A stretch of DNA of 6,280 bases from Candidatus Omnitrophota bacterium (lineage in GTDB: Bacteria; Omnitrophota; Koll11; Aquiviventales; Aquiviventaceae): contig JAHFGU010000059.1 in NCBI GenBank assembly GCA_023247285.1, positions 1,899 through 8,178 of the forward strand. Reading direction: 5' to 3'. The notes beneath the pieces were generated by a model. It ran no database searches, was not told the origin of the DNA, and saw only the letters and a program-made list of their open reading frames with translations. The translations under genes and the position numbers were made by a program. Positions 3,320 through 6,280 of this stretch are shown here, in pieces; position 1 is the stretch's first letter, and each line of letters starts with the position of its first letter.

Positions 3320-3368
3320 GCCCCGCCGAAGACGGGGCGATAGGAGGGGGAAACTTGGTTTCCCCCTC
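3320..3368 (+). other. Two tandem hairpins upstream of the tRNA genes
   Basis: GCCCCG (3320-3325) can pair with CGGGGC (3333-3338). After five bases, GAGGGGGAAAC (3344-3354) pairs perfectly over 11 bp with GTTTCCCCCTC (3358-3368) around a TTG loop. No T-tract follows, so this is not a canonical intrinsic terminator. It could be the 3' boundary of the upstream RNA or a processing signal before tRNA-Arg. Confidence 0.5.
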
Positions 3369-3378
3369 ACTATAGAGC

Positions 3379-3407
3379 ACTCCTCGTTTGACAATAGGTG
3401 CGACGCG
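3379..3407 (+). repeat. Diverged 5'-flank repeat, copy 1 (before tRNA-Arg)
   Basis: These 29 bases align without gaps to 3731-3759, with 22 identities counted by eye. The shared end is ATAGGYGCGACGCG, and it runs into the first three bases of the tRNA in both places. This suggests duplication of a tRNA cassette together with its upstream flank. Confidence 0.6.
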
Positions 3408-3478
3408 CCCGTAGCTCAATCGGATAGAGCGCTTGGCTTCGAACCAAGAGGCAGCAGGTTCGAATCCTGCCGGGCGCG
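3405..3478 (+). tRNA. tRNA-Arg (anticodon TCG)
   Basis: Full cloverleaf of 74 nt: acceptor GCGCCCG (3405-3411) pairs exactly with CGGGCGC (3471-3477); D stem GCTC/GAGC; anticodon stem CTTGG/CCAAG around CTTCGAA with anticodon TCG at 3439-3441; T arm GCAGG-TTCGAAT-CCTGC; discriminator G at 3478. It reads CGA and, by wobble, other CGN arginine codons. CCA is not encoded, so a CCA-adding enzyme is needed. It is the first of four co-directional tRNA genes. Confidence 0.97.
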
Positions 3479-3499
3479 CTCTTCTGCGAGGGCAGGATT
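3463..3499 (+). repeat. Inverted repeat pairing tRNA-Arg T arm with its own trailer
   Basis: AATCCTGCC (3463-3471: T loop end, T-stem 3' strand and first acceptor base) is exactly complementary over 9 bp to GGCAGGATT (3491-3499), just downstream of the tRNA. The intervening loop is 19 nt. Forming it would break the normal T and acceptor stems. Confidence 0.6.
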
Positions 3500-3513
3500 G
3501 ACCACGTGATCAT

Positions 3514-3571
<58 letters not shown>

Positions 3572-3586
<15 letters not shown>

Positions 3587-3609
3587 GCTTTTTCCGATCA
3601 GTGAAGGCT
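3572..3609 (+). repeat. Inverted repeat pairing tRNA-Lys T arm with its own trailer
   Basis: AGCCTTCGC (3572-3580) can pair with GTGAAGGCT (3601-3609): seven exact pairs, one G-U and one more G-C, with a 20-nt loop. A second AAGGCT at 3611-3616 is also complementary to the same T-arm strand. The geometry is the same as at tRNA-Arg and tRNA-Leu. Confidence 0.5.
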
Positions 3610-3619
3610 CAAGGCTGAT

Positions 3620-3701
3620 GGGCGAGTGGCGAAACTGGGAAACGCGCAGGCCTTAGGAGCCTGTCCCGAAAGGGTTGGAGGTTCAAATCCTCTCTCGCCC
3701 A
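3620..3701 (+). tRNA. tRNA-Leu (anticodon TAG)
   Basis: A class II tRNA of 82 nt with a long variable arm: acceptor GGGCGAG (3620-3626) with CTCGCCC (3694-3700); anticodon stem CAGGC/GCCTG around CTTAGGA with anticodon TAG at 3654-3656; variable hairpin CCC-GAAA-GGG; T arm GGAGG-TTCAAAT-CCTCT with a terminal G-U pair; discriminator A at 3701. It reads CTA and related CTN codons. CCA is not encoded. Confidence 0.96.
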
Positions 3702-3724
3702 CTCGACTTGCGAGAGGATTTGAA
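3682..3724 (+). repeat. Inverted repeat pairing tRNA-Leu T arm with its own trailer (strongest of three)
   Basis: TTCAAATCCTCTC (3682-3694, T loop plus T-stem 3' strand) is exactly complementary over 13 bp to GAGAGGATTTGAA (3712-3724), with a 17-nt loop. With a 2-nt bulge the match grows to GCGAGAGGATTTGAA (3710-3724). Seen on the minus strand, the trailer looks like an inverted copy of the tRNA 3' end. Confidence 0.75.
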
Positions 3725-3730
3725 GGGAGC

Positions 3731-3759
3731 GCCCCTAGTTTTGCGATAGGCGCGACGCG
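3731..3759 (+). repeat. Diverged 5'-flank repeat, copy 2 (before tRNA-Gly)
   Basis: Second copy of the block at 3379-3407, 22 of 29 bases identical by eye, again ending within the first three bases of the tRNA. It lies immediately after the tRNA-Leu inverted repeat. Confidence 0.6.
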
Positions 3760-3828
3760 GGTGTAGCTCAGGGGTAGAGCGTCACGTTGCCAACGTGAAT
3801 GTCGTGGGTTCAAATCCCATCACCCGCT
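3757..3828 (+). tRNA. tRNA-Gly (anticodon GCC)
   Basis: A 72-nt cloverleaf: acceptor GCGGGTG (3757-3763) with CACCCGC (3821-3827); D stem GCTC/GAGC; anticodon stem TCACG/CGTGA around TTGCCAA with GCC at 3789-3791; T arm GTGGG-TTCAAAT-CCCAT with a terminal G-U pair; discriminator T at 3828. It reads GGC and GGT. It is the last tRNA of the cluster, lacks the self-complementary trailer of the other three, and runs straight into a T-tract. Confidence 0.97.
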
Positions 3829-3901: not shown

Positions 3902-4368
3902 ATATCATGGGGTTTCTGGACGAGCGCGCCGTCGCCACGAACATCAAGGCGCAGAATAAAGAGGATGTCATCCGCGAGCTCGTCGGCCTGCTCGTGACCG
4001 CCGGCGCCATCCGGGATCGGGACGTCAGCCGCATCATCCAGATCCTCTTCAAGCGCGAGTCGTTGGGCTCGACCGGGATCGGCCAAGGGGTCGCCATCCC
4101 CCACGGCAAGTGCGACTGCGTCACCCGCCTCGTCGGCGCTTTCGGCGTCTCGCGCACCGGGGTCAACTTCGACGCGCTCGACGGCGAGCCGGTCACCCTC
4201 TTCTTCCTGCTCATCGCGCCGGAAGATTCGGCCGGACCCCACCTGAAGGCCCTGGCGCGCATCTCCCGCCTGCTCAAGGACAAGCATTTTCGGGACAGCC
4301 TGCGGGCCGCGAAAGACGAAAAAGCGCTCATCAAGATCATCCGCGACGAGGACGAGCGCCGGCACTAG
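3898..4368 (+). CDS. ptsN: PTS EIIA-Ntr / fructose-type EIIA domain protein
   Basis: A single-domain 156-residue protein of the EIIA fructose/nitrogen-PTS family, cytoplasmic, which accepts phosphate on a histidine from an HPr-like carrier. Seen: the N-terminal LD-x-AV-x-x-N-IKA-x-NKE-x-VIREL pattern (7-28), the active-site segment GIGQGVAIPHGKC (60-72) with predicted phosphorylated His69, the middle region GVNFDALDGEPVTLFFLLIAP (88-108), and HLKALARISRLLKD (115-128) with the second conserved His115. Length is typical for PtsN. No EIIB/EIIC transporter domains are next to it, so a regulatory role is more likely than sugar uptake; this is inference. ATG 3898 is chosen by fit to the family N-terminus; ATG 3907 is possible but shorter. 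It is followed after 35 nt by yvcK, probably in the same transcript. Confidence 0.87.
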   Translation: MNIMGFLDERAVATNIKAQNKEDVIRELVGLLVTAGAIRDRDVSRIIQILFKRESLGSTGIGQGVAIPHGKCDCVTRLVGAFGVSRTGVNFDALDGEPVTLFFLLIAPEDSAGPHLKALARISRLLKDKHFRDSLRAAKDEKALIKIIRDEDERRH

Positions 4369-4403
4369 GTCCGCCGCGACCGGGTGACTGAGGGACAGGC
4401 TCG

Positions 4404-5717
4404 ATGCGCTTCTTGAAGTGGTTCTATCCGGGCATGCGGGTCAAGCGGTGGCTCTTCCTGGCCGTCGCCGGCGTGCTCCTTTTCGGCATCGGCGCAGCCC
4501 TCCTGCCGGTCGAGGGCGGCATCGTCCTGCGCCTCATCAGCCTGCTCACGCTGCTCGGCGGGCTCTTCTGCCTCGCGTTCGGCTTTGCCCTGATGATCCG
4601 CTCGCTGCTCGAGGTCGTCTTCGGGCAGGGCCGTCCCCAGGAGCTGGTCGAGTTGGTGTTCCAGCGCCGCTACCTGGAGCGGGGGCCGAAGGTCGTGGTG
4701 ATCGGCGGGGGCACCGGGCTCTCAACGCTGCTGAGCGGGCTCAAGAAGTACACGACCAACATCACCGCGATCGTCACGGTGGCGGATGACGGGGGCAGCT
4801 CCGGGCGGCTGCGGCAGGAGTTCGACATGCTGCCCCCGGGGGACATCCGCAACTGCCTGGTGGCGCTCGCCGACGCCGAACCCCTGATGCAGCGGCTCTT
4901 CCAGTACCGGTTCGCGCCGGACTCGGCGCTGCACGGGCACAACTTCGGCAACCTCTTCATCACCGCGATGACCAAGATCACCGGCGATTTCGAGCGCGCG
5001 GTGCAGGCCTCGAGCAAGGTGCTGGCCATCCGGGGCCGGGTGGTGCCGTCAACGAACACGAAGGTGCGGCTGGCGGCCGAGCATGAGGATGGCAGCGTGA
5101 CGCTGGGGGAAAGCAAGATCTCGGAAGCCCCGGCCCCGATCCGGCGCATCTACCTCGAGCCGGCCGACTGCCGGCCGACGGCCGACGCCCTGGCCGCGAT
5201 CCGCGAGGCCAACGCCATCGTTCTGGGCCCGGGCTCGCTCTACACCAGCATCATCCCCAACCTCCTCGTCGATGAGATGGTGGGAGCGATCGTGACCTCC
5301 AAGGCGCTGAAGATCTACGTATGCAACGTCATGACCCAGTCGCGGGAGACGCGCGGCTTCCGGGCCAGCGACCATGTCCGCGCCCTGATCGCGCACACCA
5401 ACCCGGGCATCATCCAGGTGTGCATCGTGAATACCGAGCCGGTGCCGCGCGACTTGCTCGAGCGGTACCGCGAGGAGGCCGCGTTTCCGGTAGAGCCCGA
5501 CATCGATCGGATCCGCGCGCTGGGCTGCCAGGTGGTGAGCGGCAACATCATCAGCGCCGAGAATTACGTGCGCCACGATCCCGAGAAGGTCGCGCACCTC
5601 ATCATCCAGCTCGTGGTTGGCAGCCGCCTGCGGATCTTGCCCCCGCTGCCGCCTGACGCGGCCGTGGCCACGGATGGGCGTCCGCCGGCAGCCCCCACGC
5701 TGCGAGCGCAGGGATGA
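4404..5717 (+). CDS. yvcK: YvcK/CofD-like UDP-sugar-binding regulator with N-terminal membrane anchor
   Basis: A 437-residue member of the YvcK (gluconeogenesis factor, CofD-like) family. In Bacillus and mycobacteria these proteins bind UDP-GlcNAc and are needed for growth on gluconeogenic carbon sources and for normal cell-wall synthesis. The Rossmann-like core begins about residue 96: VVVIGGGTGLSTLL (97-110), VTVADDGGSSGRLR (124-137), PPGDIRN (144-150), GHNFGNLF (178-185), GPGSLYTSIIPNLL (275-288), YVCNVMTQ (305-312). Before it lie two predicted membrane segments (about 16-34 and 40-66) after a basic start, so the protein is probably tethered to the membrane with the core in the cytoplasm; B. 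subtilis YvcK lacks this. The C-terminal tail from about 412 is Pro/Ala-rich. GAGGGA at 4390-4395 lies 8 nt before the ATG. The stop codon lies inside the left direct repeat of the palindromic element that follows. Confidence 0.92.
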   Translation: MRFLKWFYPGMRVKRWLFLAVAGVLLFGIGAALLPVEGGIVLRLISLLTLLGGLFCLAFGFALMIRSLLEVVFGQGRPQELVELVFQRRYLERGPKVVVIGGGTGLSTLLSGLKKYTTNITAIVTVADDGGSSGRLRQEFDMLPPGDIRNCLVALADAEPLMQRLFQYRFAPDSALHGHNFGNLFITAMTKITGDFERAVQASSKVLAIRGRVVPSTNTKVRLAAEHEDGSVTLGESKISEAPAPIRRIYLEPADCRPTADALAAIREANAIVLGPGSLYTSIIPNLLVDEMVGAIVTSKALKIYVCNVMTQSRETRGFRASDHVRALIAHTNPGIIQVCIVNTEPVPRDLLERYREEAAFPVEPDIDRIRALGCQVVSGNIISAENYVRHDPEKVAHLIIQLVVGSRLRILPPLPPDAAVATDGRPPAAPTLRAQG

Positions 5718-5848
5718 TCCCACGCCCTGCTGCTGTCCCGCCTACCGGCGGGACGGCCAGCGATCACGGATGTCCGCAGCGCCGCTGGCCTGGCGGCGCC
5801 CAACACGTTGAGTGCGGCATGCGCCGCCCGCGGCAGGGCGTGGGATGA
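5711..5848 (+). mobile_element. Putative inserted palindromic element (MITE/REP-like) with 7-bp direct repeats
   Basis: GGGATGA occurs at 5711-5717 and again at 5842-5848. Between them lie 124 bp made almost wholly of inverted repeats. The left repeat holds the yvcK stop (TGA 5715-5717) and the right one the GH57 start (ATG 5845). Deleting one repeat plus the element would leave GGGATGAGC, in which the yvcK stop and GH57 start overlap as ATGA, the same arrangement as korB/aspA. This suggests insertion into a formerly overlapping junction with target duplication. It carries no ORF and is too short to encode its own transposase, so it would be non-autonomous. The caveat is that five bases of the right repeat also belong to the outer inverted repeat, so the direct repeat may be partly a product of the palindrome. 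Confidence 0.5.
5717..5846 (+). promoter_or_regulatory. Cloverleaf-like 130-nt structure covering the GH57 translation start
   Basis: An exact 14-bp outer stem, ATCCCACGCCCTGC (5717-5730) with GCAGGGCGTGGGAT (5833-5846), encloses three hairpins. Hairpin 1 is GTCCCGCC/GGCGGGAC (5735-5742, 5747-5754, loop TACC). Hairpin 2 is GGCCAGCG/CGCTGGCC (5755-5762, 5783-5790). Hairpin 3 is GGCGGCGC/GCGCCGCC (5792-5799, 5821-5828). Junction linkers are only 4, 0, 1 and 4 nt. The right outer arm contains the likely Shine-Dalgarno AGGG (5835-5838) and the first two bases of the GH57 ATG, so folding in the mRNA would hide the start. A competing helix GCGCCGC/GCGGCGC (5779-5785, 5793-5799) excludes hairpins 2 and 3, giving an alternative fold. 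Pairings were checked base by base by eye; function is inferred. Confidence 0.55.
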
Positions 5849-6280
5849 GCGACGGCCAGGTCACGCTGCTGATGGCGGTGCACTGCCATCAGCCGGTCGG
5901 GAATTTCGGGTTCGTCTTCGAGGACGCCTACCGCAAGAGCTACGACCCGTTTCTGCGCGTGCTCGAGGGCCACCCCGGCGTGCGGTTGGCCCTGCACTAC
6001 AGCGGCTCGCTGCTCGATTGGCTCACGGATCATGAGCCAGGGTTTCTGGAACGGCTCCGCGCGCTGGCCGGCTGCGGCCAGATCGAGCTGCTGGCCGGCG
6101 GGTACTATGAGCCGATTCTGCCGCTGATCCCTGAGGCGGACCGGCAGGCGCAGATCGCGCGCATGCGGCAGGCGCTCAAGCGCCTCTGCGGCGCCGAGGC
6201 CAGCGGCCTGTGGCTCACCGAGCGCGTCTGGGAGCCGGACCTGCCATCGACGCTGGCCGCCGCCGGCATCCGGTATACCT
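5845..6280 (+). CDS. GH57 glycoside hydrolase (4-alpha-glucanotransferase/alpha-amylase type), N-terminal part
   Basis: The frame stays open from ATG 5845 to the window edge, giving 145 residues of a longer protein. It matches the N-terminal part of the GH57 catalytic barrel: HCHQPVGNFGFVFEDAY (13-29), LHYSGSLLDWL (50-60), GYYEPILPLIP (86-96) and GLWLTERVWEPDL (121-133), in which Glu126 corresponds to the catalytic nucleophile of Thermococcus litoralis 4-alpha-glucanotransferase. The acid/base Asp lies beyond the window. These enzymes act on alpha-1,4-glucans such as glycogen or maltodextrins; the close likeness of the first 145 residues to the glucanotransferase subgroup favours that over a plain amylase. 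ATG 5845 is chosen because HxHQP lies about a dozen residues from the start in the family; a GTG at 5812 is an in-frame alternative just after a stop. AGGG at 5835-5838 is the only ribosome binding site candidate and lies in the palindrome. Confidence 0.9.
   Translation, partial: MSDGQVTLLMAVHCHQPVGNFGFVFEDAYRKSYDPFLRVLEGHPGVRLALHYSGSLLDWLTDHEPGFLERLRALAGCGQIELLAGGYYEPILPLIPEADRQAQIARMRQALKRLCGAEASGLWLTERVWEPDLPSTLAAAGIRYT

Follow-up and report, generated by a model that had tools for sequence, protein, structure and literature searches.

Among described repeats, the kinds nearest to the element reported here are RPE, YPAL and ERIC. RPEs are palindromic, non-autonomous and dispersed, about 150 bp long, and their open frame allows them to sit in expressed genes; in the accessible text of their description they are reported as in-frame fusions inside ORFs, with a conserved peptide (PMC10969869). 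YPAL, or RU-2, of Yersinia is a structured 168-bp repeat with target duplications, empty sites and a contiguous ORF 'co-translated with upstream genes'; its duplications are 3 to 26 bp, its inverted repeats are internal, and the consulted portion of the description does not mention a double stop/start overlap (PMC2229807). A table in the same review gives ERIC (RU-1), Correia/NEMIS and RUP as short repeats with terminal inverted repeats, a target duplication, a stable transcript fold and 5'-TA-3' ends (PMC2229807). REPs are 20-40 bp, as stated in the part of their literature consulted (PMC3733652).

Here we analysed a window of 6,280 nucleotides, the whole stretch of DNA given above. The segment between its yvcK and GH57 genes belongs to a MITE-like family that is dispersed in Candidatus Omnitrophota and apparently undescribed. 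Like RPEs, the family combines a palindrome with an open frame fit for expressed genes, found in 73 of 73 junction copies of suitable length. Going by the accessible RPE description, it is set apart in that most copies are independent mini-ORFs placed between genes, each with a start and a stop codon of its own, and in that the peptide is not conserved. As far as the partial descriptions of the other repeats reach, it differs from YPAL by a fixed 3-bp, mostly TGA duplication and terminal repeats, and from ERIC, Correia/NEMIS and RUP by T/A-CCC ends and TGA targets. It shares GC-rich palindromes and many copies with REP/BIME, whereas its length (61-315 bp for the TGA copies), its 3-bp duplication and the lack of any RAYT link found here set it apart. 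No published description of the family was found in the literature searched, mostly without subscription papers, a scope that does not prove absence from print.

The element at the yvcK|GH57 junction

The upstream gene, yvcK (4404-5717, + strand), is an ORF with a CofD domain in a Pfam search. The downstream GH57 gene (5845-6280, + strand; ORF and Pfam) runs off the window. An earlier note on this DNA had reported GGGATGA twice with 124 bp between, the yvcK stop inside the left copy and the GH57 start inside the right one, and an ATGA overlap at korB/aspA. Direct reading bears this out: the repeats are at 5711-5717 and 5842-5848, the yvcK ORF ends at 5717, the GH57 ATG is at 5845 and the korB/aspA overlap is at 1708-1711. 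The note had given the direct repeats as 7 bp. The repeat itself is real, but the direct repeat of the family is 3 bp, TGA; the left GGGA is yvcK sequence and the right GGGA is the element's own end, so the 7-bp duplication was dropped.

With boundaries set by family comparison, the element is 128 bp (5718-5845, assigned to neither strand) and consists of T + CCC...GGG + A. The left target duplication, TGA at 5715-5717 (+ strand), is the yvcK stop codon and part of the ATGA at 5714-5717. The right one, TGA at 5846-5848 (+ strand), completes the GH57 ATG (5845-5847) with A5845. A GTG in the same frame at 5812 is an alternative start, and the GH57 proteins of relatives align with the ATG at 5845 over this GTG. 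By translation, a mini-ORF of 44 codons plus stop (5714-5848, + strand) overlaps the yvcK stop by ATGA at its left end and the GH57 start, again by ATGA, at its right end.

That the segment is rich in inverted repeats also proved correct. Its outer arms are 17 nt and 94% complementary, and the + strand folds into a 17-bp outer stem (left arm 5717-5733, right arm 5830-5846, from inverted repeat, fold and family) enclosing three hairpins (5735-5754, 5755-5790 and 5792-5828, from the fold). The fold of 5700-5860 is -102.6 kcal/mol (z = -5.19), and 0 of 200 dinucleotide shuffles were equally stable. Rfam covariance models gave no match across 5711-5848 up to E = 1. The window copy deviates from the family on both arms together: the left arm is a variant terminal inverted repeat, CCCACGCCCTGC against CCCACCACCTGC, and the right arm is GCAGGGCGTGGG, lacking the AGGTGG found in most copies.

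A YvcK protein scan of genome contigs matched 80 loci, of which 75 carry the label Omnitrophota or Omnitrophica, and the first 28 junctions were read. Relatives with a bare ATGA overlap at yvcK|GH57, for which the earlier note had proposed a check, were found (L003, L005, L007, L012 and L013). Inserts with family ends fill the junction in L004, L009, L010 and L014, and other inserts fill it in L001 and L002; the remaining loci lack an ATGA, have a different neighbour or meet a contig end. A YvcK tree of 22 rows leaves 13 of 19 inner branches unresolved; its smallest starred group that includes the window (96/89) contains the window and L004, both filled, together with L013 and L006, both empty, the former with an ATGA and the latter with none. 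Judged from these comparisons, the window element is an insertion. As an aside, the contigs of L009 and L015 are labelled Planctomycetales and Nitrospirae, although their YvcK groups with Omnitrophota at 72% identity to the window; they are probably mislabelled or misbinned.

Empty NTGA and filled states are both seen at four junctions: yvcK|GH57, adk|map, rplF|rplR and polX|era. At adk|map (25 relatives), a script scored 3 sites as filled, 12 as bare NTGA and 10 as unclassified, with L287, among the 12, being filled on reading. The scores were 3 filled, 10 bare and 13 unclassified at rplF|rplR (26 relatives), and 2, 10 and 10 at polX|era (22 relatives), where L353, which starts ATGATCCC with no right arm found, was counted as empty. 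The mini-ORF closes at all 8 sites scored filled at these last three junctions; the long elements of L280, L310, L316 and L336 belong also to the set of 122 described below.

A dispersed family with a 3-bp target duplication

The family ends are YCCCACCACCTGC, and the terminal stem usually surrounds three hairpins. Multiple copies in relatives, the other check proposed earlier, were found in number and dispersed. CCCACCACCTGC occurs in 18 of 20 relatives' genomes, at most 36 + 40 times (G009), against 0-2 per strand for the reversed control; in several of these genomes the count is one or two, no more than in the control. In an even sample of the phylum, TCCCACCACCTGC is present in 34 of 384 genomes, 21 of which have it once or twice, equal to background, and 13 three to 55 times. 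Within the order of G003, AGGTGGTGGGATGA is present in 19 of 28 genomes, and the control gave 0 in 28 of 28.

Elements were collected from the YvcK loci, the CCCACCACCTGC-match loci and regions around arms, giving a non-redundant set of 135, later 148, with paired ends. The search rule required arms matching at least 13/15. Because elements were picked by their ends, the rule is blind to reading frame, and it favours canonical ends. An early collection of 73 elements contained at least two chance inverted repeats (L128 at 388, L140 at 15151), and the later sets demand likeness to the consensus end.

Direct-repeat columns are identical in 129, 130 and 127 of the 135 elements and then in 74, 66 and 52, so the duplication is 3 bp and sharply bounded. 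It is identical in 124 of 135, being TGA/TCA in 111 and another triplet in 13 (CCA, TAA, CTA, CGA, ACA, AAG). The base pair adjoining CCC...GGG is T-A in 113 and C-G in 16 of the 135. In the set of 148, the duplication is TGA in 122, and these TGA copies are 61-315 bp long. AGGTGG lies within the last 14 nt of the right arm, ahead of the right start, in 115 of them. The number of inner helices of 5 bp or more is exactly three in 88 of the 122, versus 11% of shuffled interiors, and the median interior z is -3.5 (121 scored). L286 and L344 hold 27-nt copies that have lost the inner hairpins while the mini-ORF still closes. Homologous copies occur at different loci in both orientations, 87 pairs having the same and 43 the opposite orientation (130 pairs). 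As in MITEs, the elements are short and multi-copy, with terminal inverted repeats, a target duplication and empty orthologous sites. The earlier proposal of a palindromic-element insertion of a possibly undescribed family is thus borne out by the copies in relatives, the duplication and the empty junctions.

Position and reading frame of the mini-ORF

ORFs were called by length in these metagenome-assembled genomes, at a threshold of 80 codons and with no gene finder. By this measure 80 of the 122 TGA elements lie between an ORF stop at the left TGA and an ORF start at the right NTG, which we call junction elements, and 24 are start-only, 10 stop-only and 8 neither. In the 135-element set, 62 of 90 element ATGAs mark both a stop and a start, versus 240 of 7,099 ATGAs of the same loci. 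All 20 flanking ORFs sent to Pfam match a family at E up to 1e-5, and the flanking pairs include L6/L18, adenylate kinase/M24 peptidase, PolX-like/Era-like and a pair of T2SSE proteins. One ribosomal-protein operon (L181:1-4947) contains two elements, at rplF|rplR and adk|map.

A CCC-to-GGG length divisible by three puts the NTG within the left NTGA in frame with the right TGA, where a mini-ORF opening at this NTG ends. Such a length was found in 73 of 80 junction elements (p 2.9e-27). In every one of the 73, no stop codon interrupts the frame before the right TGA, at which it ends and overlaps the next start. Had the elements lain the other way round between unchanged end codons, only 30 of 73 would be stop-free (Fisher 1.4e-17). 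Because the elements are not independent, the comparison was repeated with one element per homology cluster (single-linkage and rough; 55 clusters in all, the largest of 41): 28 of 34 have the right length, and then 28 of 28 are open versus 9 of 28 in the opposite orientation. Among the 135 elements, the mini-ORF frame is open in 67 of 67 and the five other frames in 27-40 of 67. The left codon of the 73 closing copies is ATG in 64, GTG in 5, TTG in 2 and CTG, a poor start, in 2.

Closing junction copies are spread over genomes: 25/27 in G009, 9/10 in G011, 7/7 in each of G003 and G014, 5/5 in G012, 5/6 in G006, 4/6 in G004, 4/4 in G123 and 2/2 in G032. The mini-ORF also closes at 8 of 10 stop-only, 17 of 24 start-only and 4 of 8 'neither' sites. 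Both mini-ORFs close in 41 of 43 opposite-orientation homologous pairs. The peptides are not conserved, their inner parts differing widely, while frame, openness and end points are kept. For the 26 elements without TGA duplication the signal is weak, 14 having a length that keeps a frame through (p 0.025).

Five of the seven non-closing junction elements (L004, L128, L135, L169, L178) get to the right TGA through overlapping stop/start steps, against 61 of 730 and 32 of 730 frameshifted controls. The other two are L098, an in-frame N-terminal fusion, and L173, which fits no pattern. Over all 20 non-closing TGA elements there are 7 such chains, 7 in-frame fusions and 6 that are neither; among the non-closing start-only copies, 5 of 7 are in-frame N-terminal fusions. 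In L287 the adk stop is lost, and the adk frame continues through the element to the same right ATGA.

Proposed translational transparency, its rivals and the origin of the element

A transposon that inserts into an operon is expected to have polar effects. We consider it likely that this non-autonomous transposon survives in operons by translational transparency, that is, by preserving the hand-over of ribosomes. The MITE-like element inserts at TGA and duplicates it, and most copies sit at ATGA stop/start overlaps inside operons. Because its ends are T...A, the inserted copy reads ATGA-T(element)A-TGA; the upstream stop stays intact at the left and the ATG is re-created at the right, mostly behind the Shine-Dalgarno-like AGGTGG. 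Ribosomes ending the upstream gene would re-initiate at the left ATG, make the mini-cistron (MIPPPA...QVVG*) and, on terminating at the right ATGA, pass on to the downstream gene. The right-hand initiation region is paired in the outer stem, and ribosomes moving through the left arm would also open this stem and free the AGGTGG in it. The window copy, which lacks AGGTGG, would depend more on coupling.

The earlier note held that the insertion uncoupled the two genes. This is probably wrong, since an open mini-ORF links the left and right ATGA in the window copy and in 73 of 80 junction copies, and coupling can be argued to be kept. We infer both that ribosomes translate the mini-ORF and that copies survive because coupling is kept. 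The frame could stem from active source elements instead of selection in place, the 'neither' sites being few. With somewhat less assurance, we favour describing the family as a mobile mini-cistron that targets ATGA overlaps, carries one at each end and multiplies in operons, even ribosomal-protein operons, with the hand-over unbroken; it may make a loose coupling hairpin-gated and obligate. Dozens of natural insertions with an open, exactly ending frame would make the importance of termination-reinitiation readable by comparative genomics, even in uncultivated bacteria. They suggest how a mobile element can inhabit dense operons without harm and how new small ORFs may arise, and they make it testable whether coupling works across an arbitrary, highly structured mini-cistron.

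The frame may instead be open only against polarity, since an untranslated structured spacer invites Rho-dependent termination or mRNA decay, the downstream gene using the AGGTGG of the right arm; whether ribosomes restart precisely at the right ATG would then not matter. The frequency of AGGTGG there and the tolerance of N-terminal fusions at start-only sites agree with this reading, which is possible but rather unlikely as the sole cause: it accounts neither for 73 of 73 frames ending exactly at the right TGA nor for the arrival of five of seven exceptions at the same stop by overlapping steps. Rho protection overlaps with translational transparency, and both may act together. It is very unlikely that source copies encode a functional small peptide for which the frame is kept. 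Such an intrinsic gene would account for the open frame in all junction copies of suitable length, but homologous DNA serves in either orientation and then encodes unrelated peptides, and a conserved peptide was dropped because the inner peptides differ and protein searches with two mini-ORFs found no homologue.

REPs are linked to a RAYT gene and are not known to duplicate their target. In a REP/RAYT-type mechanism, a Y1 tyrosine transposase would cut after a short target and the TGA would be the element's end rather than a duplication. In its favour, Y1_Tnp (PF01797) is present in 18 of 25 genomes, and TCA/TGA stands on one side in several of the 11 flank pairs that are not identical. The mechanism is nevertheless improbable, given the 13 non-TGA targets with identical 3-bp repeats, the element-rich G003 and G011 without a Y1_Tnp match (as metagenome-assembled genomes, they may be incomplete) and the exact CCC[AC]CCACCT end in 0 of 47 transposase loci (1.9-3.8 kb each). 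A vertically inherited, conserved regulatory RNA of yvcK/GH57 would fit the strong fold and the presence of an element at the same junction in other species. Empty junctions in relatives and copies dispersed at many other genes refute it, Rfam gave no match, and its chance is close to nil.

No mobilising transposase or parent transposon with the same ends was found in the collected loci or the 47 PF01797/PF01609 loci, these two families being the only ones searched. Among the long end-to-end pairs, two were read as candidates for an autonomous partner and rejected, L180 being a nested second repeat plus a mini-element and L181 two separate mini-elements. A phage origin was likewise dropped: two viral-contig matches to ATGATCCCACCACCTGC have no right arm in the stretches read and look like chance. 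Most arms thought unpaired belong to mini-elements whose second arm is mutated. Arms in L261, L264, L274, L275 (8296), L276 (21) and L277 (two) showed no good partner in a 400-bp range, and the unpaired arms of L270 and L272 are at contig ends.

Several other repeats were seen. A second, longer repeat of about 280 bp, with terminal arms such as AGAGCACCTAACAGAATGA and inner motifs common to both copies, fills the yvcK|GH57 junction in L002 (1988-2268) and is nested within a mini-cistron element in L180 (inside 4034-4474); the L002 insert does not close. A different palindrome (GTGACGTTC...GAACGTCAC) lies at yvcK|GH57 in L001 (7266-7436), where the ORF from the yvcK ATGA stops exactly on the GH57 ATGA, as it does in the degenerate L009 insert; arms in L004 (4706-4824) look similar to those of the L001 palindrome. 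In the window, a short inverted repeat seen by eye at 3339-3367 (GGGGGAAAC...GTTTCCCCC) lies between aspA and four tRNA genes in a row (3405-3828), and Rfam matched nothing on its strand except tRNAs. Tandem element pairs, whose middle duplication is common to both members, occur in L120 (7668-7948) and L121 (9125-9393), the latter pair being 99% identical inside.
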